Origin: a virus
Direction: 5' to 3' (one strand)
Length of the DNA: 38,040 bases
Virus record (IMG/VR): IMGVR_UViG_3300030233_000166
Location: 1 to 38,040 of that record
The notes beneath the pieces were generated by a model, which saw only the letters and a list, made by a program, of their open reading frames with translations, did not search any database and had not been told where the DNA came from. Both the position numbers and the translations under genes were made by a program. Position 1 is the stretch's first letter; every line of letters starts with the position of its first letter. Positions 2,648 through 28,946 of the stretch are shown here, one piece after another.

Positions 2648-3409
2648 TCAGGCAGCATTTTTCGCCATGTGAGCCTGAGCTCGAGAGGCACAGGTGTCCA
2701 TGAGTGCGTCGGCCTCGTCGTCAGAGAGAGCCTCGAACAGGATCCCTCCGCCGTCTCGATTGAGAGCGATCATGAATTCCCTGAAGGCTCTCTCGCTTGA
2801 CGTGATCCATGGCTCCCGTCGCATTGCTCGGACGACGGCTCTGGCAAGAGGCTTCCGAGCGGCGGTGTTCGTGCGTTCGACGAAGTTGCTCCGAATGTCC
2901 GCGGTCTTCAGGATTAGTCGCAGCGCACCCTCGGGATCATCCGGATCTGCGATGCTCGCGATGTGCATGTTCCACCAGAGACGGGATAATGCATTGTCGT
3001 CGCGGATCGCGGTAAGTCCGGGAGCGAACATGTGGATTCGGACCTGGCCGTCGAGCTGCTCACCGATGTTCCCTGAAAGCCACCTGTCCCGCGAATAGCC
3101 AAGGCATTCGATGTGCGCCAGTCTGGCCCAGACACGCTCCTCCCGCGCGAGAGCAGGCGTCATCCCTTGAAGGGCCCGGAACAGGATCAGGGAGTTGTCG
3201 ATGTCGGCAGCTGCCGTCCTCGCTGTACCATCGAGCGTCGCCAGCAGGTCATGATCAACCTGAACCGTGCTGGTCTCGACTGCCCAGCCGTTATCATGCT
3301 CGAGATCAAGGAAGTCTCCTGCCTCATACCGGTCGCGGTTGGCGACGATGCTCTCCTTGAGCTCGGAAAGCTTCTTTTCCGAGAGATATTTGAGCGGCGA
3401 TACCGTCAT
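2648..3409 (-). CDS. DUF6339-like protein of the MORC-linked locus
   Basis: A 253-residue protein that I recognise as probably DUF6339. The segments EERVWARLAHIECLGYSRDRWL and, later, DDNALSRLWWNMHIA and GGGILFEALSDDEADALM are of the type conserved in that family, which has no established function. It is mostly alpha-helical, with no signal peptide, membrane segment or obvious nuclease motif. It is the last gene of the minus-strand operon and its ATG overlaps the stop of the preceding gene by 4 bp, so it is probably translationally coupled. DUF6339 genes tend to sit beside restriction-modification-type genes, which matches this context. The family name is from memory, and the function is unknown. 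Confidence 0.75.
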   Translation of the reverse strand: MTVSPLKYLSEKKLSELKESIVANRDRYEAGDFLDLEHDNGWAVETSTVQVDHDLLATLDGTARTAAADIDNSLILFRALQGMTPALAREERVWARLAHIECLGYSRDRWLSGNIGEQLDGQVRIHMFAPGLTAIRDDNALSRLWWNMHIASIADPDDPEGALRLILKTADIRSNFVERTNTAARKPLARAVVRAMRREPWITSSERAFREFMIALNRDGGGILFEALSDDEADALMDTCASRAQAHMAKNAA

Positions 3410-4242
3410 CTGTCTGCCTCCGCTACCAGCTGCGCCAGTCCGCTTGCCGGGCCGTCGAGGAGTTTCTGAGCGCTCTCGAGTATTGAAGTATCCGTCTTTG
3501 GATCAACGCCGCGCGCGTCGCAGCGGGCCGTGAAAGGAGCATGCCAGCGATATGGCTCGTATTGCTCTCCTTCGCTTCGCAGCGCATCAAGGACTTCCAT
3601 CACTGCCGGAAGATAGACAGAGTTCATGACCACAGGCTTTCCGGCCTTCTGCTCGCGCAAGAGCATGATCGTCTCGTGCGTCTTCTCTCCTGCGAGAATG
3701 GTGATGCGGTCTAGGTCCAGCTGAACTTTCAACATCCCTTCCGGAATACCCGTCGATCGGTCCAGTGCGAAGATGCTTTCAATGGGAGCAAGCTTCGCCT
3801 GTCCGACCGAGATGATGTGCTCCTCCCCGATCGCGATGATATCCCCATTTCCGAGATCAACCGGCGGCGAGAACTCCGGGTGAATGGTCCCCGGGTCCCA
3901 GCCAGCCAACTTTTCGTTCAACCAGACGATAGGTCGCAACGATACCCTGTTCAGCAGAACTCCGGCTGCGAAGTCGGTGCGGCCAGAGGGCCACGCTAAT
4001 GTACGAAGTTCAGTATGATACGTGTCCGCGCAGCGGACGAAGCAGCCCACCGACGCCTTTCCGGTCTCGATAAGTTGCCGGATCCCGTCTTCCGTCAGGG
4101 TGGTTTCGTGCTGAATGGAAAGCGCCCCCGTAGCGATGTCTTCGCTCAGGGTAAAGGCCATATCGAATTCACCGGCGGTGAAATCCCCTGTGTCGTGCGC
4201 AAGGACCGGATGCGGATAGCGCGTTTCTTCCGAGAACCTCAT
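3406..4242 (-). CDS. Conserved protein of unknown function between MORC ATPase and DUF6339 genes
   Basis: A 278-residue protein with no domain I can name. It opens with RYPHPVLAHDTGDFTAGEF and has alternating hydrophobic and charged stretches suggesting a beta-rich N-terminal half. A helical C-terminal half carries the conserved-looking EGMLKVQLDLDRITILAGEK and VVMNSVYLPAVMEVLDAL. There is no signal peptide or transmembrane segment. It overlaps the MORC ATPase stop by 4 bp upstream and the DUF6339-like start by 4 bp downstream, so the three should be made in linked amounts and may form one complex. Proteins opening in this way are, as far as I recall, found only in such ATPase-linked loci. 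A role as target sensor or effector would be a guess. Confidence 0.7.
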   Translation of the reverse strand: MRFSEETRYPHPVLAHDTGDFTAGEFDMAFTLSEDIATGALSIQHETTLTEDGIRQLIETGKASVGCFVRCADTYHTELRTLAWPSGRTDFAAGVLLNRVSLRPIVWLNEKLAGWDPGTIHPEFSPPVDLGNGDIIAIGEEHIISVGQAKLAPIESIFALDRSTGIPEGMLKVQLDLDRITILAGEKTHETIMLLREQKAGKPVVMNSVYLPAVMEVLDALRSEGEQYEPYRWHAPFTARCDARGVDPKTDTSILESAQKLLDGPASGLAQLVAEADR

Positions 4243-6140
4243 GCCGACGTTTCCTCGACTGCCGCGCGGCTTACGGCGATCAATTCGATCGGGCCATCGT
4301 ATGGTTCATCGAAAGAAACGGTGACCTTGCACCGTTCGCCGTCTTTCACGTCAACAGTAAGCACGCCAGAACCGGGAGTGCCCGCGTCCGCCGCCGTTAC
4401 GTTGAGGCCCTCGGGTGCGTTCACACCCGTGGCCTGGACCATCAATTCGATCGGTCCCGAGGCTTCCGGCGTGAAGTGCAATTCACGGGATGTGGCTGCT
4501 CCTGAGCCGTCTGAACGGATTAGGTTGCGTACCTCGCGGAGAACAACCGGCTCTCGATCTCCTGCAGTGCCGCGGCCGCCCGTGCCGCGACCGGTTCCGG
4601 AGCCGCTACCACCTCCTTTACCGCCAGAACCCGTCCCGGTCTGGCTTTGACCGCCTCGTTCGCCTCCAGCAGGGCTGGGTGCTTTTCGAGACTTCGATTT
4701 CCGTCGCTTGGACTCGTAGGTGTACCGTTCGGGGTCATGTTCTGCATTCGGATCGTCGGGTTTGTCGGTCTTGCCGGTCTCCGAGAAGAAACGACCCAGT
4801 TCGTCGAGGACGACGGAACCCTCGTGCTTGACGCCGGTCGTGGCCTTGATGATGTCCCGGAGCTCCTTGCCAAGGCGTCTCATGGCCTTGGCCGCTTCAT
4901 CACGTTTTGAGGCGTCAGGGAGCCGCTCCGCCGAGAAGCCATCATGTGCCGGATTCTCAAGTTTCTTCAACAACACGCCGGAGCCTTTATCCTCCGGTTC
5001 CACCACAACCACGAAGTCGCGCGAACCGCGGAATTGCTGTAGAGGGTGCCCAAAGTGTCGAAGGTTGTCCGTGATCAGCATTCCGTTTCGTATGAAGCCC
5101 ACGCGGCAGGGCATTCCCTCTTCGATCAGCACTCTGACGCGCATCTGCCCAAGCTTCGGGATCGTCAGAATCCTCTCTTCCGCACTGTCTGAAACGAGAC
5201 AACGGTAGAGCTGTGCCGCGAAGGTCAGATCGGCTTGGTGACCTGTGCGCTCCGCTGCATCGATTATGTCCTGTCTCGAGAAAAGGCTCTCGAGCGTGTT
5301 TCGGTTGATATTGATTCTGCCATCGTCAACTTCGAACACCATCTCTTCGCGATGGACGGCGCAGAAGAAATTCGAGACGAGCGAATAGGTCATGCGCTCC
5401 GCCCAGTCTTCAGCGGCCCGGAAGCCCATGCAGAATATTGAGGTTCCGGTCTCGGTGCGCTTCATCCAGTCCGGCACCAAGGCGGGATCCGTCACGGCGC
5501 GAAAGCCATCCGGGTCACCCCAATAGCCGGTTGCCCTGTGTTTCGTGCCGTCGGGCGCAGCGTGAGAAACCAGCTTCACCTTGCCCTGAGCAGCGAAGGC
5601 TTCCACGTCTCCGTCCTTGTATGTTGTTGCGTAGAAAACGGTCTGCAGGTCCGAGACGGCGAAGGAGGCGTTCTTTCCGATCCCGAAAGAGCCGCCGGAG
5701 TCAGCGGCATCCTTTGCCGTCACTCCCGAGGCCTTGACGAGTGAATGGAAGGGGGTTCCGTCCTTGTCGGGCGGACCAACAAGGCCTGTCGTATTGTGAT
5801 CGGTTATCTCGAGCACGGGTATGGAACTCGCACCAATCACCTCGGAGGCATTGGAGAAGAACTCCTTCTCGCGATCCTGTTCGGCCTCTGCGCGGCAAGC
5901 AGCGATCGTATCGCCGAGCAGGTCATGGGACGGAAAGCTCGAGGGGTCGAGTTTCAATACATTGAAGGACATCCTGACAGGGTGCTCGGGCAGGCCCGTC
6001 GCCGCGTCGCGACTGTTCTGCCCGGCTTCTCGAGCGCAGCTGGCATAAGGCGCATCACGGAACGTCTCGATTCCGGCGTCGCCAAGCCCCTCCTTCTCGC
6101 CCGCCTCGTTGGTCAGGAATCTCAGAACTGGTTCAACCAT
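4239..6140 (-). CDS. MORC/MutL-type GHKL ATPase
   Basis: A 633-residue protein with the GHKL (Hsp90/MutL/MORC) ATP-binding fold at its N terminus. Motif N1 is REAGQNSRDA (E38 the likely general base, N42 the Mg ligand). The DxG-like motif is EITDHNTTGL (D114), and the glycine lid is SGGSFGIGKNA (about 148-158). Middle and coiled-coil-like segments follow, for example SKRDEAAKAMRRLGKELRDI near 411-430. After them comes a Gly/Ser/Arg-rich linker (about 491-528) and a beta-rich C-terminal domain of about 100 residues. Iyer, Abhiman and Aravind described prokaryotic MORC ATPases in restriction-modification loci, and they are thought to clamp or loop DNA. The start ATG at 6140 has an AAGGAG about 11 nt upstream. 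It lies 44 bp after the small gene at 6185-6406 and overlaps the next gene by 4 bp. Confidence 0.85.
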   Translation of the reverse strand: MVEPVLRFLTNEAGEKEGLGDAGIETFRDAPYASCAREAGQNSRDAATGLPEHPVRMSFNVLKLDPSSFPSHDLLGDTIAACRAEAEQDREKEFFSNASEVIGASSIPVLEITDHNTTGLVGPPDKDGTPFHSLVKASGVTAKDAADSGGSFGIGKNASFAVSDLQTVFYATTYKDGDVEAFAAQGKVKLVSHAAPDGTKHRATGYWGDPDGFRAVTDPALVPDWMKRTETGTSIFCMGFRAAEDWAERMTYSLVSNFFCAVHREEMVFEVDDGRININRNTLESLFSRQDIIDAAERTGHQADLTFAAQLYRCLVSDSAEERILTIPKLGQMRVRVLIEEGMPCRVGFIRNGMLITDNLRHFGHPLQQFRGSRDFVVVVEPEDKGSGVLLKKLENPAHDGFSAERLPDASKRDEAAKAMRRLGKELRDIIKATTGVKHEGSVVLDELGRFFSETGKTDKPDDPNAEHDPERYTYESKRRKSKSRKAPSPAGGERGGQSQTGTGSGGKGGGSGSGTGRGTGGRGTAGDREPVVLREVRNLIRSDGSGAATSRELHFTPEASGPIELMVQATGVNAPEGLNVTAADAGTPGSGVLTVDVKDGERCKVTVSFDEPYDGPIELIAVSRAAVEETSA

Positions 6141-18598: not shown

Positions 18599-21223
18599 AT
18601 GATCGACCTCAACGACATCGCGGTCCCGAAGACCCGGCACGATCTGGCGGCGGTGAAGGAGCGGCTGGCCTGCACGGCCGCCGACTGGCTGCCTGGTCTC
18701 TTCCCCGAGGCCCGGCTTGCGCGGGACCGTCGATCCTTGCGCTGCGCAGACCTCTCCGGGCGCCCGCCGCGAAAGGAGGGCTCGTGCACGATCCATCTCG
18801 ACGGTCCCTATGCCGGCTGGGGCTTCGACTACGCCACCGGCGAGCGGGCCGGTCCGATCGACCTGATCGCGCAGGCGACCGGTCTTTGTGACGGGTCGCT
18901 CTTCGACGAGGCGGCGCGGCTCGCAGGGATGGACCATCCGGCGCCGCGGTCCGCGCCGAAGTCGCCCATACGCACACGTCCCGACCACTCGGCCGAGATC
19001 GCGCGGCTGGTCCACGGGGCCGTGCCGATCGCGGGTACGCCTGGCGAGACTTATCTGCGCGCTCGCAGGCTTTCGGATCCCGGATCGCCCGACCTTCTGT
19101 TCCATCCCGATCTTCCGGACTTCGACAGCTGCCGCGGCTGGCCCGGCCTGATCGCGATCCTGCGGCTGCCGAGCGGGGAGCACGCGCCGGGCATCCACCG
19201 CACCTTCCTGCTCGATGACGGCAGCGCGAAGGCGCCTCCCGGCAAGAAGATGCTCGGCAGCGTGAAGGATGCCGTCGTCCGGCTGTTCCCGATGCCCGCG
19301 GACGGCCACATCGGCATCGCCGAGGGGATCGAGACGGCGCTCGCTGCCCGCGTGCTATTCGGCACACCGGTCTGGGCGGCGCTGTCGGCCGACGGTCTGG
19401 CGCGGTTCCAGTGGCCCGAGGGCGCCCGCCGCGTCACCATCTATGCAGATGCCGGAGACGCCGGCCGCCAGGCGGCCGCGACGCTCTCGGACCGCCTGAA
19501 CCGCGCCGACATCCCAAACGAGATCGTTGCCCCGCTGCATGGCGACGACTTCAACGACGACCTGCAGCGTGGTGCAGGCGCCAAGGATTACGAGCGCCAA
19601 GCAGGTACGGCAGCTGAACCGCAGGCCGAAGAACCGGACGCGGTCACGCCCATCGTCGCCTCCGCCGACGATCCCGCGACGCTGATCGCCGCGGCCGAGG
19701 CACTGACCAATCCACCTGAGTTCGAAGCGCTGTCCACGCTGCTTGGGCGCATCGCGCTGGCAAAGCTCGACCCGCTGCCCGAGCGGCAGGTCATCGCGCG
19801 GATCAAATCCACGACCGGCATCGGCATGTCGGTCCTGACTCAGCAGCTGGCCGAGCTCCGCCGCCGTATGAACGCCACCGGCGACCCGCACGCGCCGATC
19901 CCGAAACCCGCCTGGTTCAGGCGCCTGCGGCTCGACCTCGCCGGCGCGCCCGAGCGCAACGAGGCCAACGTCATCGTCGCCCTGACCTCAGATCCGGCCT
20001 TCGCCGGTGTGCTCGCCTTCGACGAATTCGGACAGGAGATCGTCGTGCGCCAGCCGTTGCCGTGGGACGCCGGAACCGCCTCCCTCCCGCGTCCCTGGGA
20101 GGACGCCGACGACATTCGCACCGCGGAATGGCTGCAGCTGCGCGGCATCAACGTGGCGCCGGTGGTCGTCAGCCGCGCAGTCGGCGCCGTCGCCCGCGAG
20201 CTGCGCATACACCCAGTCCGCGACTGGCTCGATACCCTGACATGGGACGGGACGCCCCGGATCGAGACCTGGACCAGCGCCTATCTCGGCGCGGAACCCT
20301 CGGCGTTCAACCACACCATCGGCGCGCTCTGGCTGATCTCGGCCGTCGCCCGCATCTACCGTCCCGGCGTGAAAGCCGACCACATGCTGATCCTCGAGGG
20401 GCCGCAGGGCGCGCGCAAATCCACCGCGATCAAGGTGCTGGCCGGCGAGGAATGGTTCACCGACGAGCTGCCGGAGCTTGGGTCCAAGGACGCCGCGCTG
20501 CACATGCAGGGCGTCTGGATCCTGGAGATCGCCGAACTCGACGCCATCGGTCGCGCTGAGGTCTCTCGGATCAAGGCGTTCCTGACCCGCACGACCGACC
20601 GCTTCCGCCCGCCCTACGGTCGCTATACTGTCGAGGTGCCGCGCCAGTGCGTCTTCGCTGGCACCGTGAACCCCGACACCTATCTGCGCGACGAGACCGG
20701 CAACCGCCGCTTCTGGCCCCTCCGCTGTGGGACGATCGACATCGCGGCGCTCGCGCGCGACCGGCACCAGCTCTGGGCAGAAGCCGTCCACCGTTTCCGC
20801 GCCGGCGCGATCTGGTGGATCGACGACCCGGCGCTGCTGGCAGAAGCCCGCGAGGAACAGGACCGCCGCTACCAGTCCGACGCCTGGGACGACCTAATCG
20901 AACACTGGCTGACGCACGAAATCCGGACCGTCTCCGACGGCTTCCCCGATTACGGCAATTCCCGCACCGAAAGCGTGCCGCGCCCCGAGCCGCTGGGCGA
21001 CGTATCGGTCGGCGAGATCCTTGAGGAGGCGATCGGGCTAGAACCTGCCCGCTGGACCCGCGGCGACCAGATGCGCGTCTCGGCCTACCTCAAGGCGAAC
21101 GGCTGGGAGCGGTACCGGCGGCGCGACGAGGGCGGGCGCGAGGCGTCGCGCGAGTGGCGGTATCGCAAAGGTCATCCTCAGTCGCCACAAGAGACGATGG
21201 CAAACGACCGATTGCGGCCATGA
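18599..21223 (+). CDS. Toprim-VapE primase/helicase-like replication protein
   Basis: An 874-residue multidomain protein. The N terminus (residues 1-110) resembles a CHC2-like primase zinc region but lacks a clear zinc set. A Toprim domain follows at about 239-320, with IAEGIETALAA (metal-binding Glu) and TIYADAGDAG. A linker leads to a virulence-associated E (VapE) ATPase domain at about 540-790, with RDWLDTLTWDG, Walker A LEGPQGARKST (about 598-609), WILEIAELDAIGR and GNRRFWPL. The C terminus is a winged-helix-like region (ANGWERYRRR). It should prime and unwind phage DNA. The ATG at 18599 lies 8 bp after the helicase stop, and its first codons match those of the genes at 15519 and 15731. 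Confidence 0.92.
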   Translation: MIDLNDIAVPKTRHDLAAVKERLACTAADWLPGLFPEARLARDRRSLRCADLSGRPPRKEGSCTIHLDGPYAGWGFDYATGERAGPIDLIAQATGLCDGSLFDEAARLAGMDHPAPRSAPKSPIRTRPDHSAEIARLVHGAVPIAGTPGETYLRARRLSDPGSPDLLFHPDLPDFDSCRGWPGLIAILRLPSGEHAPGIHRTFLLDDGSAKAPPGKKMLGSVKDAVVRLFPMPADGHIGIAEGIETALAARVLFGTPVWAALSADGLARFQWPEGARRVTIYADAGDAGRQAAATLSDRLNRADIPNEIVAPLHGDDFNDDLQRGAGAKDYERQAGTAAEPQAEEPDAVTPIVASADDPATLIAAAEALTNPPEFEALSTLLGRIALAKLDPLPERQVIARIKSTTGIGMSVLTQQLAELRRRMNATGDPHAPIPKPAWFRRLRLDLAGAPERNEANVIVALTSDPAFAGVLAFDEFGQEIVVRQPLPWDAGTASLPRPWEDADDIRTAEWLQLRGINVAPVVVSRAVGAVARELRIHPVRDWLDTLTWDGTPRIETWTSAYLGAEPSAFNHTIGALWLISAVARIYRPGVKADHMLILEGPQGARKSTAIKVLAGEEWFTDELPELGSKDAALHMQGVWILEIAELDAIGRAEVSRIKAFLTRTTDRFRPPYGRYTVEVPRQCVFAGTVNPDTYLRDETGNRRFWPLRCGTIDIAALARDRHQLWAEAVHRFRAGAIWWIDDPALLAEAREEQDRRYQSDAWDDLIEHWLTHEIRTVSDGFPDYGNSRTESVPRPEPLGDVSVGEILEEAIGLEPARWTRGDQMRVSAYLKANGWERYRRRDEGGREASREWRYRKGHPQSPQETMANDRLRP

Positions 21224-21342
21224 CACTGAACGTGAACAAAGTTCTGTTGAGCAAAGTCGTGAAGCCGATGCATGCAATGATTTTGCTAGTGATTCTGACT
21301 ACAGCACTTCAATCAAGGCAGATATTTACGCGGTGTTCGCAG

Positions 21343-22110
21343 TTATCGGCAGCGCACCCACTCAATCAGCGGATAGCAATAACTATTCGCTGATCCTGTG
21401 CCAATAAATCCCCATTTCTCGGCCGTTTCGAAAAACGAAAGATAGGAGCTTTCGTCCTCTCCTGAGCATGAAACATCGAAATCAACCGCGCGCTCGTAGC
21501 CTTTCTCTATACAAAATTGCCTAGCATTGTCATCGGCATGGCTCACGCCTTCGTCGCCGTCATAATTTCCAAAAATTCGATCCGGCTCGCGATTGCCCGG
21601 ATACAACACGACTGGCGGAACGAAGCAACCTGGTGCTCCGCATACTTCCTGCGACTCTGTGGGGATCGAGAGTCGTTCTCCTCTCTGAAGTGCCGCTTCG
21701 ATATCGGCGGCGTATGTATCGATGAGGCCCGACGCGACCAAGAATCGAAGGTTTGCGTCTGCTCGGCTCGGCTCTGCAGTGACTGATTGGAGAATCAGCG
21801 CCTGCTGCGCTGCTTCACGCTGCGCGCGCAATTCAGCCTCACCGGATGCTCTTTCGACCTCAAGCCCTTGCTCGGCTGTGAGGCGAGCATTTTTCGACTG
21901 ATAGTATTGCGACACGGCGGTGGCTAGGACGGATGCAGTCGCGCCAATCACGGCTACCAGGATCGGTCCAAATACGGCCCAATTCAATGTTCGTTTGGAT
22001 CGAAGCGATCTAAGTTCTTCCTCGACCGCCTGTCGACGCTCGTCCGCAAGTCTCTCGCGCTCGAGCGCGTTGCGTTCGCGGTTCAATAGTATCTGTTCTT
22101 GCTCAGACAT
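21343..22110 (-). CDS. Coiled-coil membrane-anchored protein, partner of the nuclease-like gene
   Basis: A 255-residue protein. Residues 5-38 form a charged coiled coil (NRERNALERERLADERRQAV). Residues about 44-66 are one transmembrane helix (AVFGPILVAVIGATASVLATAV). A second helical charged stretch follows, then a Cys-containing C-terminal domain (VCGAPGCFVPPVVLYPGN, ending in EWVRCR). No catalytic motif is recognised. It follows the staphylococcal-nuclease-like gene by 21 bp, on the strand opposite to the replication genes, and its sequence is visibly richer in A and T, so it looks like acquired cargo. The 119 bp between it and the VapE gene hold nothing I recognise. Confidence 0.75.
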   Translation of the reverse strand: MSEQEQILLNRERNALERERLADERRQAVEEELRSLRSKRTLNWAVFGPILVAVIGATASVLATAVSQYYQSKNARLTAEQGLEVERASGEAELRAQREAAQQALILQSVTAEPSRADANLRFLVASGLIDTYAADIEAALQRGERLSIPTESQEVCGAPGCFVPPVVLYPGNREPDRIFGNYDGDEGVSHADDNARQFCIEKGYERAVDFDVSCSGEDESSYLSFFETAEKWGFIGTGSANSYCYPLIEWVRCR

Positions 22111-22131
22111 GGCACGGCAACATTCAGCATA

Positions 22132-22944
22132 TCAACTGGATATTACAACCAATTCGTGAGGCTCGACGGTCATCTTGACCGTATTGTCTCCCTTTTCGAT
22201 AACATTGTCGAAGCCGGTGAAGACGCCTTGACTGGGTATACTCACCCGCTCTTCCTTTTCGTGTTCGATCCATTCCTTCAAGTTGGCGAAAGGCCTATCG
22301 GGATCGAAGAACGTATCGTCCCTTACAAACGCGTCGATCCGCCGCCAAAGCTTGGGGAAAATCGGTGCCATGCTGTCCGGGTGGCCGGTCCAGTCAGCGC
22401 CGAGTGTCGAACGATCTGCGGACCAGACACCCATGCCGCCGACCTTGGCCTTGTTCGAAACCTCTATGCAGCGTTCTCGCAGGTCGTCGAACAGCGTGTC
22501 GTAAAAGAGCGGATACGCGTGCCCGTTTTCCAACTGCTGGACATTAATGCTCTCCATGATGTCATCAGCACTCAGAAAGACATTCGCACCATCCTGAAGC
22601 GTTGTGTCACCCGCAAAGACGAATGCGATCGGTCGGCCGTGCGGGCCCAACTGAGTACTAAAAACATGACCCCGAGCGCTCTGAGTGCCACCATTCGTTC
22701 CAGCAAGATCAAGGTTGGCGGCGGTCGCATCGGAAGAAAAGGGATCAAGCGCTGAGCTTTCCATTGTATCTATGGCTTCATATCGTAGTTGAATACTCCC
22801 GTTATTCATATTGACCTTTGGTGGCTTCCCGCGCCGTCGGAGTAGAAAGAGGGGAGAAGGATCATCGGGAACAAAACGAAGCGAGTCTCCGTCCGGTCGA
22901 CCAAACGAGGGTTCGAAACGGCCCTTTATCAACGTGAATGGCAT
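22132..22944 (-). CDS. Staphylococcal-nuclease-like protein (thermonuclease fold), cargo
   Basis: A 270-residue protein whose first 170 residues fit the SNase fold. It has RPDGDSLRF (metal-binding D, 18-20), IQLRYEAIDTMESS (R54, D59 and E62 in the places of SNase R35, D40 and E43), GPHGRPIAFVF (R104 in the place of R87), then SINVQQLENGHAY and KVGGMGVWSAD, as in the C-terminal helices of SNase. About 100 residues of unknown fold follow. No signal peptide is seen, so it acts inside the cell. The ATG at 22944 with GGAG 9 nt upstream is preferred to the TTG at 22959. It is the first gene of a two-gene operon with a membrane protein. A defence or exclusion role is inference. Confidence 0.78.
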   Translation of the reverse strand: MPFTLIKGRFEPSFGRPDGDSLRFVPDDPSPLFLLRRRGKPPKVNMNNGSIQLRYEAIDTMESSALDPFSSDATAANLDLAGTNGGTQSARGHVFSTQLGPHGRPIAFVFAGDTTLQDGANVFLSADDIMESINVQQLENGHAYPLFYDTLFDDLRERCIEVSNKAKVGGMGVWSADRSTLGADWTGHPDSMAPIFPKLWRRIDAFVRDDTFFDPDRPFANLKEWIEHEKEERVSIPSQGVFTGFDNVIEKGDNTVKMTVEPHELVVISS

Positions 22945-23165
22945 AGCAAGTTTCTCCAACTGACTGAACGGTCCACGTCAACAATCCAAGACGTCAACGC
23001 ATCAATCAAGTGAAAGGTGATAGTACATCACCCAACGTATGACGGAAGCCGCCGTCGGCTGACGAGCTGTCAGGTCCGCCGAACGGTCGTTCTTGCGATC
23101 TAAAGTGCCGGGACACTTCACGCCTTCGTTGCCCTTCAGCTGTCTCCAGGCGCTGCACGCGCTGT
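22945..23165. other. Upstream region of the cargo operon, no gene recognised
   Basis: About 220 bp before the start of the nuclease-like gene. It must carry that operon's promoter on the minus strand, but no good -35/-10 pair stands out. With 23166-23591 it forms a gene-free stretch of about 650 bp. Open frames here are composed of repeat translation (VPT/VGT) and are not credible proteins. Confidence 0.4.
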
Positions 23166-23462
23166 GTCCCAACCTCCCCGATGGTCCCAACCGTGTCCCA
23201 ACCTCCGGAGGGGGTTGGGGACACGAAAAGCCATTCAAAAACAACGGTGTCCCCAACCTCACTCCGTGGTCCCAACCTTTTGCTACACATTCATGTGGGA
23301 GAACGGAAAAGGTCGGGAACATGTTTTTCTATACGAAAAGAGAAGGACCCCCGTTGGGGACACCGAGGTTGGGACCACATCCGGGCAACCCATTGGAGTG
23401 AAACGATAAAGGGCTGTCCCAACCCCCTCGAAGGTTGGGACCAGGCGGTCTGAGGTTGGGAC
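23166..23462. repeat. Cluster of a 9-bp motif GTCCCAACC in both orientations
   Basis: GTCCCAACC occurs at 23166-23174, 23184-23192, 23195-23203, 23269-23277 and 23416-23424. The complement GGTTGGGAC occurs at 23367-23375, 23433-23441 and 23454-23462. Three forms with one extra G or C lie at about 23213-23222, 23249-23258 and 23353-23361. That makes about 11 sites in 300 bp. The pair 23416/23433 is a perfect hairpin. Spacing is irregular, so it is not a CRISPR array. It lies between the replication genes and the RuvC-like gene and could be an iteron-type origin or a protein-binding array. Confidence 0.75.
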
Positions 23463-23591
23463 CGGGACGGGCAGCACGTCGATCTTCGCCGGCCGCGTCG
23501 TCCCTCGTCATTTTCGCTTTGGCCGAGGACCGCCGGATGCTACATCTTGCGGTGACCGAAGCCGAAGGCCCACAGCTTGTGAGCCTTCACG

Positions 23592-24113
23592 ATGAACACA
23601 CTGATCCCCGCGCAGGACATCCACCCCGAACCGGGTGCGATCAACCGGTCCTGCATCCTCGCCCTCGACCTCGGCACCACGACCGGCTGGGCGCTCCGCT
23701 GCCATGACGGACTGATCACCAGCGGCACGGTCAGCTTTCGCCCCGGACGCTTCGACGGTGGCGGCATGCGCTACCTGCGTTTCACCAACTGGCTGACTGA
23801 ACTCGACCGGCTGTCGGGGCCCATTGCCGCGATCTGGTTCGAGGAAGTTCGCCGCCACGCCGGGACCGACGCGGCCCACATTTACGGCGGGCTGATGGCT
23901 ACCCTGACCTCGTGGGCCGAACTGCGCGGCGTTCCCTACGAGGGCGTTCCAGTCGGCACGATCAAACGCCATGCCACTGGCAAGGGCAACGCGCCGAAGA
24001 AGGCGATGATCGCCGCGGCCCGAGCACGAGGGTTCTCACCCGCCGACGACAATGAGGCTGACGCCATCGCCATCCTGCATTGGGCCATCGAGACGAACGG
24101 TGGCCTGACATGA
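23592..24113 (+). CDS. RuvC-like Holliday junction resolvase
   Basis: A 173-residue protein with the RNase H-like fold of RuvC and phage resolvases: first strand ILALDLGTTTGWAL (D26), IWFEEVRRHAG (E84) and the C-terminal acidic motif SPADDNEADAIAIL (D153/E155/D157). It would cut four-way junctions before packaging. The ATG has no strong ribosome binding site. It follows the 9-bp motif cluster by 130 bp and overlaps the next gene by 4 bp. Confidence 0.85.
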   Translation: MNTLIPAQDIHPEPGAINRSCILALDLGTTTGWALRCHDGLITSGTVSFRPGRFDGGGMRYLRFTNWLTELDRLSGPIAAIWFEEVRRHAGTDAAHIYGGLMATLTSWAELRGVPYEGVPVGTIKRHATGKGNAPKKAMIAAARARGFSPADDNEADAIAILHWAIETNGGLT

Positions 24114-26640: not shown

Positions 26641-27963
26641 ATGACCCTCGCCTTCGCCCCCGAGCGGATCGAGATGTGGCCGCTTGCGAGCCTGCAGCCC
26701 TACGCGAAGAACGCGAAGGTGCACGGGCCCGACCAGGTCGCAAAGATCGCCGCCAGCATGGCCGAGTTCGGCTGGACTGTGCCCTGCCTCGTCGGCGAGG
26801 ACGGGGAGCTGATCGCGGGCCACGGCCGGGTGCTGGCGGCGACGCAGCTCGGGCTGACCGAGGCGCCGGTGATCGTGCTCGGCCACCTGACCGAGGCACA
26901 GAGGCGGGCGTACCGCATCGCGGACAACAAGCTGACCGAACTCGGGTCTTGGGACGAGGCGATGCTCTCGGCCGAGCTGCAGGACCTGCTGGCCGACGAC
27001 TACGACCTGTCGCTGGTCGGCTTTTCGGACGGCGAGCTGGACAAGCTTCTGGCGTTCGATCCGGACGGGGGCGGTGAAGAAGAAGGTGGCGCCGGGGGCT
27101 CCGTGCCTCCGGTGACCATCCCCGAGCCGCCGCGCAATCCGGCCTCGCGGACGGGCGACCTGTGGATCCTCGGCGATCACCGGCTGCTCTGCGGGGACTC
27201 GACCTCGCATGACGACGTGCGTCGCCTGATGAACGGCGAGCGCGCGGTGCTGTTCGCGACCGACCCGCCGTATCTCGTCGACTACGACGGCTCGAACCAC
27301 CCGACGCGCAACAAGGACTGGAGCCAGTCCTATGGCGTCACCTGGGACGACAGCTCGCAGGGCGCGGACCTCTACGACGGGTTCATCGCCGCGGCCGTCG
27401 CCGAGGCGATCACCGAGGATGCGGCCTGGTACTGCTGGCACGCGTCGCGCCGTCAGGCGATGCTCGAGGCCTGCTGGGAGAAGGCGGGCGCCTTCGTCCA
27501 TCAGCAGATCATCTGGGTGAAGGACCGCGGGGTGCTTACCCGGTCGCACTACCTGTGGAAGCACGAGCCCTGCTTCATGGGCTGGCGCCGTCCGAACCGT
27601 CCGCCGAAAGTGGCCGAGCAGACGCTGCCCTCGACCTGGGAGATGCCGTCCTTTGCGAAGGATGAGCGGCCCGACCACCCGACGCCGAAGCCGCTCGATG
27701 CGTTCGGGATCCCGATGCGCCAGCACGTCGCTCGCGGCGGCCTCTGCTACGAGCCTTTCTCGGGTTCCGGCTCGCAGATCATGGCGGGCGAGGCCAATGG
27801 CCGCCGCGTCTACGCGATGGAGATCAGCCCGGCCTATGTCGATGTCTCCGTCGAGCGCTGGCAGGCCGAGACTGGCAAGGCTGCGATCCTCGATAGAGAG
27901 GGCCGGACCTTCGCCGAGGTGAAGGCCGAGCGGTTGGGCGACAAGGCCGATGCCGCCGCCTGA
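26641..27963 (+). CDS. ParB-domain/DNA amino-methyltransferase fusion
   Basis: A 440-residue protein. The N-terminal ParB/Srx-like domain (about 1-120) has LQPYAKNAKVHGPDQVAKIA, GELIAGHGRVLAA and YRIADNKLTELGSW. A Gly/Glu-rich linker follows at about 142-152. The C-terminal methyltransferase domain has catalytic motif IV ATDPPYLVDY and later motif I CYEPFSGSGSQ, the beta-class order (IV before I), plus HPTPKPLDAF. It would methylate adenine N6 or cytosine N4, protecting phage DNA from host restriction. AGGA lies 6 nt before the ATG. The stop overlaps the next start by 1 nt. Confidence 0.92.
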   Translation: MTLAFAPERIEMWPLASLQPYAKNAKVHGPDQVAKIAASMAEFGWTVPCLVGEDGELIAGHGRVLAATQLGLTEAPVIVLGHLTEAQRRAYRIADNKLTELGSWDEAMLSAELQDLLADDYDLSLVGFSDGELDKLLAFDPDGGGEEEGGAGGSVPPVTIPEPPRNPASRTGDLWILGDHRLLCGDSTSHDDVRRLMNGERAVLFATDPPYLVDYDGSNHPTRNKDWSQSYGVTWDDSSQGADLYDGFIAAAVAEAITEDAAWYCWHASRRQAMLEACWEKAGAFVHQQIIWVKDRGVLTRSHYLWKHEPCFMGWRRPNRPPKVAEQTLPSTWEMPSFAKDERPDHPTPKPLDAFGIPMRQHVARGGLCYEPFSGSGSQIMAGEANGRRVYAMEISPAYVDVSVERWQAETGKAAILDREGRTFAEVKAERLGDKADAAA

Positions 27964-28946
27964 TGGCCGTCTACTACAACGATGCCGATCCCGCGGCCTG
28001 CGCATGGCTGCGGGAGTTGATCGCGGCTGGGCTGCTGCCGGCCGGCGATGTGGACGAGCGCTCTATCCTCGAGGTGGAGCCCGCCGACCTGCGCGGCTTC
28101 GCGCAATGCCATTTCTTCGCCGGGATCGGCGGCTGGCCCTACGCGCTGCGCCTAGCGGGCGTTGCCGAGGACCTGCCGGTCTGGACCGGCTCGCCGCCCT
28201 GCCAGCCGTTCAGCCAGGCCGGGCAGCGCAAGGGACAGGACGATGACCGCCACCTCGCACCGGCATTCCTGCGCCTCGTCGCAGCCTGCCGCCCGGAGCT
28301 CGTCCTCGGCGAGCAGGTCGCGAGCGCGGGAGTGCTCGGACCTGGTGGCGGCGCGGCTCGAACAGCGACTGAAGGTGCGACTGGCTGGGCGTGGTTCGAC
28401 GCTCTGGCGACTGACCTGGAAGCGGCATCTTACGCCGTCGCGGCGGCCGATCTACCGGCTGCGGGCATCGGCGCGCCGCACATCCGTCAGCGGCTGTTCT
28501 TCGGCGCTGTCGCCCTGGAGCTGGGCAGGCTGGGCGACAGCCTCGGCGCGGGATCACAAGGACGGATCGGAATGCCGGGCGGTGCCGATCAACGCGCTGC
28601 TCGGCCGGCAGGTCTGGCTGGCGGGCTGGCCGACGTCAATGGCGGGCTCGCCCGCGACGGCTGCGTACAACGCGGCGGGCAACACCGATGCGAGCCGCAG
28701 GACGGTGAAGCTGGTGGATTGGTCGAAGGAGCCGACCCCGCCGGGACCGATGCGACGGACGGCGTCTGGCGAGATCCGGACTGGCTCCTCTGCCGCGATG
28801 GCTGCTGGAGGCCCGTTGAACCCGGAACATTCCCGCTGGCTGATGGGATATCCGGCCGCATGGGGCTTCTGCGGGGCTACGGCAATGCGATCGTGCCGCC
28901 GCTCGCGGCGGAGTTCGTGATGGCATTCATGGAGAGCCTGCGATGA
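27963..28946 (+). CDS. Phage DNA (cytosine-5-)-methyltransferase
   Basis: A 327-residue C5-methyltransferase of phage type. It has an N-terminal MAVYYNDADPAACAWLRELI, motif I HFFAGIGGWPYALRLAG, motif IV TGSPPCQPFSQAG with the catalytic Cys, GEQVAS where cellular enzymes have ENV (motif VI), motif VIII GAPHIRQRLFF, and motif X RGYGNAIVPPLAAEF. From about 28243 a second long frame is open on the same strand over the same bases (separate entry). The middle part of this frame, about residues 195-260, is Gly-rich and less protein-like. It follows the amino-methyltransferase with a 1-nt overlap, so the two modify phage DNA together. Confidence 0.88.
   Translation: MAVYYNDADPAACAWLRELIAAGLLPAGDVDERSILEVEPADLRGFAQCHFFAGIGGWPYALRLAGVAEDLPVWTGSPPCQPFSQAGQRKGQDDDRHLAPAFLRLVAACRPELVLGEQVASAGVLGPGGGAARTATEGATGWAWFDALATDLEAASYAVAAADLPAAGIGAPHIRQRLFFGAVALELGRLGDSLGAGSQGRIGMPGGADQRAARPAGLAGGLADVNGGLARDGCVQRGGQHRCEPQDGEAGGLVEGADPAGTDATDGVWRDPDWLLCRDGCWRPVEPGTFPLADGISGRMGLLRGYGNAIVPPLAAEFVMAFMESLR
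28243..28920 (+). other. Second reading frame overlapping the C5-methyltransferase gene
   Basis: A 225-codon frame, shifted relative to the methyltransferase gene and open from ATG 28243. Parts look like a protein family often annotated in phages: GSTLWRLTWKRHLTPSRRP, LRASARRTS, RDHKDGSE, then LAGWPTSMAGSPATAAYNAA and LNPEHSRWLMGYPAAW. In the same DNA the first frame gives GAPHIRQRLFF and GYGNAIVPPLAAEF. Either both frames are coding, or the second is a GC-rich shadow that databases carry as a false family. I lean to dual coding or frameshift fusion being possible but unproven. Confidence 0.35.

Follow-up and report, generated by a model that had tools for sequence, protein, structure and literature searches.

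A 38,040-nucleotide IMG/VR virus record, analysed here over its whole length (the window), carries ahead of a RuvC-like resolvase gene a dense array of a short motif in both orientations, and the question is which protein reads this array and for what function. The initial annotation had offered as its first candidate a phage replication origin with iterons, with VapE as the binder, and had named as others a binding array for a phage or host protein and a family of small mobile repeats. The first candidate is favoured by covariation of the sites with the VapE C-terminus and by a single cluster in five of five host genomes, an observation which disfavours mobile repeats. We consider it very probable, on comparative sequence grounds, that the prophage starts its replication at the array and that the C-terminal winged helix of VapE binds the sites as iterons, because changes in the sites track this winged helix better than they track the neighbouring proteins.

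The repeat array and its gene neighborhood

With its genes for terminase, portal, protease and major head proteins, the window is, judged by its sequence, all or part of a full-size tailed prophage; it also encodes a serine recombinase, a CI-like S24 repressor, a Cas4-type exonuclease and a Dda-like helicase. A tRNA-Ser (GGA) at 51-140, on the left edge of the record, is a possible integration site. A group of three minus-strand genes at 2648-6140 corresponds to the PADLOC candidate defence set PDC-M33A/B/C (E 1.8e-98, 8.1e-33 and 4.6e-25), with DUF6339 in the third, and adjoins a C5-cytosine methyltransferase gene at 1006-2643. A fusion of a ParB-like domain with a DNA methyltransferase is found at 26641-27963, followed by a second DNA methyltransferase at 27963-28946. 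The proposed initiator is a VapE-type protein with DUF7146, Toprim_3, VapE-like helicase and C-terminal winged-helix domains, encoded upstream of the array (Table 1).

Table 1. Coordinates of the array, its putative initiator gene and the adjoining resolvase gene in the window
Feature	Position	Strand	Basis
VapE-type primase-helicase gene, proposed initiator	18599..21223	+	Pfam/PHROG matches; PDB profile match 7pds E 2.4e-61
Codons of the predicted VapE C-terminal winged helix (residues ~801-857)	20999..21169	+	AlphaFold; covariation
Iteron 1, GTCCCAACC	23166..23174	+	exact match
Iteron 2, GTCCCAACC	23184..23192	+	exact match
Iteron 3, GTCCCAACC	23195..23203	+	exact match
Iteron 4, variant GTCCCCAACC (also written GGTTGGGGAC)	23213..23222	-	sequence; position conserved in relatives
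Iteron 5, variant GTCCCCAACC	23249..23258	+	sequence; position conserved in relatives
Iteron 6, GTCCCAACC	23269..23277	+	exact match
AT-richer core separating the two iteron groups, proposed melting region	23278..23352	.	56% A+T
Iteron 7, variant GTTGGGGAC	23353..23361	-	sequence
Iteron 8, GTCCCAACC	23367..23375	-	exact match
Iteron 9, GTCCCAACC	23416..23424	+	exact match
Iteron 10, GTCCCAACC	23433..23441	-	exact match
Iteron 11, GTCCCAACC	23454..23462	-	exact match
RuvC-like resolvase gene, conserved right-hand neighbor of the array	23592..24113	+	PHROG 159

The exact 9-mer occurs eight times in the whole window, five times on the plus and three times on the minus strand, always within 23166-23462, and three one-base variants with an extra C bring the array to eleven sites of 9-10 bp. 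The initial annotation had described about eleven copies in about 300 bp, in both orientations and with one perfect hairpin pair (iterons 9 and 10), a description that was borne out, as was, within the window, the confinement of the exact 9-mer to this place, which it had named as support for an origin. Along the array the strands follow the order + + + - + + | - - + - -, and the arrangement is mostly mirror-symmetric about the core. The commonest 7-mer in 23100-23500, both strands counted, has eight copies against a maximum of four in 500 dinucleotide shuffles, so this clustering is significant, whereas the whole-window count at up to one mismatch (15 against 8.7 expected) is not significant by itself. 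The core is richer in A+T than the remaining array (39%) and the flanks (40%); of the A/T-rich patches reported earlier between the sites, the enrichment thus holds and the plural does not, as it concerns mainly one central core. No DnaA box was found in the array with a 9-mer consensus and one mismatch allowed, and one weak match lies at 22802. In all 22 loci offering 8 kb on each side, the GC skew was higher to the right of the array than to its left; as centres placed elsewhere shift too, it was set aside as too weak to serve as independent evidence for an origin.

The array was also said to lie in a gene-free stretch, which indeed holds no conserved gene, an ORF at 22099-22755 being present in one of 77 non-redundant loci, the window itself; the window ORFs in 21224-23165, between vapE and the array, gave no Pfam or PADLOC match. 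On the other side of the array, a separate hairpin at 23564-23588 (GAAGGC.CAC, loop, GTG.GCCTTC) ends three bases ahead of the ruvC ATG. In relatives its stem is nearly invariant and its loop is variable in sequence and mostly 4 to 8 nt long, CAT/ATG replacing CAC/GTG in two unique leaders. This hairpin gave no Rfam match and may be an element in the 5' leader of ruvC mRNA.

Conservation of the array in relatives

Relatives were collected through VapE homologues in viral contigs and in a single genome of each species, and extra loci were added through the ruvC leader pattern. The comparison at the DNA level is based on IMG/VR and genome contigs, and a blastn search against named phages and plasmids gave no match to the window DNA. 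Judged by record titles, the relatives belong to Rhodobacterales, Rhodospirillales, Acetobacterales and Hyphomicrobiales. The ruvC gene lies downstream of vapE in 141 of 157 unique vapE loci and, in this comparison with related prophages, which the initial annotation had proposed, the array is kept before it: a significant de novo repeat cluster was found within 700 bp ahead of ruvC in 132 of these 141. The remaining nine comprise five loci with a strong array farther upstream, three with degenerate arrays (best 7-mer in four copies) and L253, in which no significant cluster was found between vapE and ruvC.

The median distance from the array to ruvC is 124 bp (given as about 130 bp for the comparison with RuvC), while vapE lies ~1.9 kb away in the window and, across 75 non-redundant loci, anywhere between 10 bp and 5.5 kb away, with 50 of them at 400 bp or less. 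The distance to vapE is variable and the array stays close to ruvC, and therefore cargo has been inserted between vapE and the array; this gap, at 21224-23165 in the window, is an insertion hot spot. Place and layout of the array are otherwise fixed across relatives down to ~60% VapE identity. Of 77 non-redundant arrays, 73 have a largest inter-site gap richer in AT than the 500 bp flanks. The core between the two groups measures 75-95 bp, and the sites are 328 plus and 120 minus to the left of the largest gap, as opposed to 108 plus and 295 minus to its right.

In the five host genomes that carry a close relative the 9-mer clusters once per genome, with 6 to 8 exact copies in each cluster. 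The totals per host are 16, 41, 11, 28 and 21, against 15, 28, 14, 26 and 13 for a reversed-pattern control, and the copies outside the cluster are scattered. Many clusters across the host chromosome, a result which the initial annotation had held against an origin, were accordingly not seen in these hosts.

Three loci (L105, L170 and L253) harbor a second repeat cluster of the GTTTCC/GTTACC type, ~2.7-2.9 kb after vapE and beyond ruvC. Its layout is different and its centre is not AT-rich, and it is not the origin-like array.

Concerted change of the sites and covariation with VapE

In divergent relatives all sites of one array share an altered motif or a near variant of it, the versions including GTCCCAACC, GTCCCACTT, GTCACCAACC, GTCACCACC, GGCCCCACTT, GTCCAACC and others. 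Such concerted change is expected of sites obliged to match one binding protein. The hypothesis about the reader was formed on 13 VapE sequences, whose last ~60 residues seemed to follow the motif. The sites are written here as GTCxCCAyC, where x and y are the two variable bases. For the code relating residues to bases, arrays were sought only between vapE and ruvC, and 137 of the 141 loci (76 non-redundant) were included; the four left out are L253 (too few exact copies), L036 (register) and L129 and L131 (unrelated C-terminus).

Glutamine at position 840 of VapE is found with x=A in 26 of 26 cases and arginine or lysine with x=C or T in 50 of 50 (Fisher 6.5e-21; 76 non-redundant loci). For y, with two undecided loci not counted, serine, threonine or alanine at position 828 goes with A (38/38) and glycine with C (27/36; 8e-13), and likewise Arg821 goes with A (41/41) and Lys821 with C (27/33). 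The nine non-redundant exceptions to the y code fall in a CCTACC group and a GTCCAACC group. Rows combining Lys821 and Gly828 have AC in 27 cases and TA in five, these being the CCTACC group in which the preceding base has changed too, and one is undecided. All four combinations of x and y bases occur among the loci. When the 847 columns of VapE were scanned over 77 non-redundant loci, position 840 was the best for x (phi 0.92, the next reaching 0.63), with 821 and 828 ranking first and second for y (0.81 and 0.76); the best column before residue 770 attained 0.58 for x and 0.43 for y.

A maximum-likelihood tree was built from residues 1-760, with the reading domain excluded, using 75 of the 76 rows (one was left out for unknown residues). 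All 8 independent pairs that differ in x go along with residue 840 (p 0.008), and of 17 pairs differing in y ~13 agree with residue 828 and ~14 with residue 821, none being opposed (median p 0.0002 and 0.0001, respectively); the crossed comparisons, which served as controls, gave a median p of 1. On this tree, shared descent does not explain the association between residues and bases, and the switches recur independently. The association also holds in the 65 non-redundant loci outside the 13 sequences of the hypothesis (3e-14 and 4.5e-9, without the rule that the array lie between vapE and ruvC).

The column scans and the AT and orientation counts are based on an array choice made before that rule, into which 139 of the 157 loci entered; seven were dropped, eight had a best 7-mer count below five (mostly contigs ending before ruvC), and the remaining loci had too little downstream DNA. 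Under this earlier, wider choice residue 840 gave the same picture, 27/29 and 47/48, and its three exceptions (glutamine in L105 and L253, arginine in L170) were traced to the second repeat cluster beyond vapE.

Predicted structure of the VapE C-terminal domain

AlphaFold models of both the fragment and the full protein display helices at 804-812 and 821-833 followed by strands at 836-841 and 852-857. The predicted fold is a winged helix, in which residues 821 and 828 would lie in the recognition helix (821-833) and residue 840 in the wing strand (836-841); the fragment was modelled with moderate confidence (mean pLDDT 70). The best Foldseek row for this domain is 7pds, a weak match (E 0.32), and VIA gave a Z of 6.2, tied with unrelated winged helices. 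A PDB profile search with VapE returned 7pds as the sole match, over residues 427-762 (Table 1), making it the only solved relative found by sequence. The entry is annotated 'Similar to D. nodosus vapE' and titled 'PriRep1 with dsDNA', PriRep1 being a protein which we take to be of SaPI origin. VapE thus appears as a putative initiator of the SaPI Rep-like (VapE) helicase type, with a predicted winged helix placed C-terminally after the helicase.

A model for initiation and alternative explanations

Binding of the array by VapE we infer from the covariation and, in a second step, its activity as an origin from layout, neighbors and precedent. Judging by the covariation, the specificity between initiator and origin would reside in the C-terminal domain. 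VapE would dock through its C-terminal winged helix on the two iteron groups, mostly inverted to each other, and form multimers on both; going by the example of SaPI Rep, these would probably be two hexamers. They would then presumably melt the AT-richer core and load onto the single strands as helicase, bidirectional replication would start with the fused Toprim domain acting as primase, and junctions arising later would be resolved by RuvC.

VapE might instead bind the array in order to control transcription (of itself, the cargo or the ruvC operon), copy number or partition, with no origin at this place, which we regard as improbable. The array does lie just upstream of ruvC, where binding could affect the promoter, and covariation demonstrates coevolution with VapE, not replication. 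Nevertheless, some eleven sites in two mostly inverted groups, with an AT-rich core and next to a helicase gene, fit the origins described in PMC6092414 and PMC7581432 better than an operator, and the array persists even where cargo parts it from vapE by up to 5.5 kb.

That the array is read by another phage protein, such as the ParB-like/methyltransferase fusion, the terminase or the repressor, or is a packaging site, seems very unlikely. The best column of the ParB-methyltransferase reaches a phi of 0.70 for x, but only 0.49 for y, and the protein is present in only 46 of the 77 loci. The best columns for x and y are 0.62 and 0.36 in RuvC (75 loci), 0.57 and 0.35 in Dda (74), 0.44 and 0.32 in the Cas4-type exonuclease (72) and 0.58 and 0.32 in DUF6362 (47). 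None of the five neighbors compared comes near the values of VapE, and all were rejected as array readers on account of this weaker covariation.

An equally slight chance is given to a structured RNA in which the inverted sites would form conserved stems. Copies in opposite orientation are able to pair, with one hairpin at 23416-23441, but the array has no Rfam match up to E 5, and complementarity in the flanks of 151 close hairpin pairs (0.373) is not higher than in 1655 other pairs of opposite orientation (0.381). Moreover, all sites change alike whatever their possible partner, with no partner-specific covariation of base pairs, and the change tracks a domain of DNA-binding type; the structured RNA was consequently rejected. 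Small mobile repeats (REP/MITE-like) gathered by chance, which the short inverted repeats with variable spacing might call to mind, are hardly credible, given the single cluster in each of the five hosts, the other copies scattered near the control level, and a place and layout fixed over such divergent relatives.

Comparison with known replication origins

The VapE-bound iteron origin proposed here has its closest descriptions in staphylococcal elements. According to PMC7581432, the C-terminal domains of SaPI Rep and SCCmec Cch2 recognize short repeats near their own genes, and in the Pri-Rep-ori arrangement of SaPI/PICI the C-terminal domain of the initiator helicase reads a short-repeat origin just downstream of the gene; here the likeness lies in specificity through that domain, as judged by covariation. 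PICI origins, as described in PMC6092414, consist of two iteron sets around an AT-rich region, and the two-group layout is found here as well. However, PICIs are satellites devoid of their own capsid genes, unlike the window with its terminase, portal, protease and major head protein, and the array of this family lies up to 5.5 kb from vapE and adjoins ruvC. PMC10516667 presents PriRep1 as a SaPI protein, that of SaPI5 being described with an AEP domain, in contrast to the Toprim/DUF7146 N-terminal primase part of VapE. For SCCmec Cch2, PMC7581432 describes binding of the C-terminal domain, in isolation, to short direct repeats lying beyond the 3' end of the helicase operon. This system differs in belonging to a staphylococcal cassette with a three-iteron putative origin and a separate polymerase-primase.

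Streptococcus thermophilus phages of the Sfi21 type have repeat-rich origins beside a helicase gene, and the phage SW6 (Moineauvirus) has an array 3' of its helicase gene, but in the Sfi21 type primase and helicase are encoded by separate genes. The origin of phage P4 is likewise an iteron origin; P4 is, however, a satellite phage, its alpha protein was not among the VapE sequence matches, and its origin-binding domain was not among the structure matches listed for the predicted VapE winged helix. The alpha protein resembles VapE as a primase-helicase with a C-terminal winged-helix origin-binding domain (cited in PMC10516667).

The kind of system is known. Within the literature searched, what appears to be new is the family itself, its occurrence in full-size prophages of Alphaproteobacteria and the relation of residues to bases. 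No described origin of this family was found in titles and abstract starts of the open-licence PMC literature on VapE/iteron and Rhodobacteraceae prophage topics.

Extension to isolated phages

The array test was applied to 20 of 1004 phage records with a VapE match, at identities down to 26%, six taken from the top of the first match list and 14 from a spread list; to pass, a repeat cluster just 3' of the gene had to exceed, at each of the two word lengths, nearly all of 100 simulations. Eleven phages passed, with the cluster directly 3' of vapE: Marinobacter PS3, Pseudomonas U5, Corynebacterium CL31 and Troy, Clostridioides phiCDKH02, Staphylococcus QT1, Paenibacillus Bloomfield, APSE-7, Streptococcus SG586P1 and SW6, and Acinetobacter Alexa. 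Among the nine that did not pass at both word lengths, Staphylococcus PHM and the satellite Javan56 passed at one and phiKTN6 was marginal at one; the test was also not passed by the Bacteroides and Phocaeicola phages, Faecalimonas NatCom_26447, Caulobacter Jess A, Pseudomonas PPpW-3 and Leuconostoc LN25. Pseudomonas U5 fits the code, with Lys821, Gly828 and Arg840 and the motif TGTCCCAC, the residues of Marinobacter PS3 do not fit it, and the fit of Caulobacter Jess A is ambiguous.

Taking these results together, we lean towards a joint proposition of three parts. The two-group iteron origin, formerly held to be specific to PICI satellites, would be used by VapE-helicase phages in general, in hosts of different bacterial phyla. 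In the alphaproteobacterial winged helix, Arg or Lys840 would specify C or T and Gln840 A, and four bases on Lys821 with Gly828 would specify C and Arg821 with Ser, Thr or Ala828 A. Finally, specificity would have been rewired repeatedly by these residues along with conversion of all ~11 sites.

If the array is indeed the VapE-bound origin, an origin would be defined at the sequence level for numerous prophages in Rhodobacterales and relatives, in which we found none described, and the satellite-type origin would be extended to full-size phages. The family would also offer a natural data set on an initiator and its whole array of binding sites switching specificity together, in which exchanging one or two residues of the VapE winged helix is predicted to change the iterons preferred, and would provide a means to sort these prophages into replication-compatibility groups.
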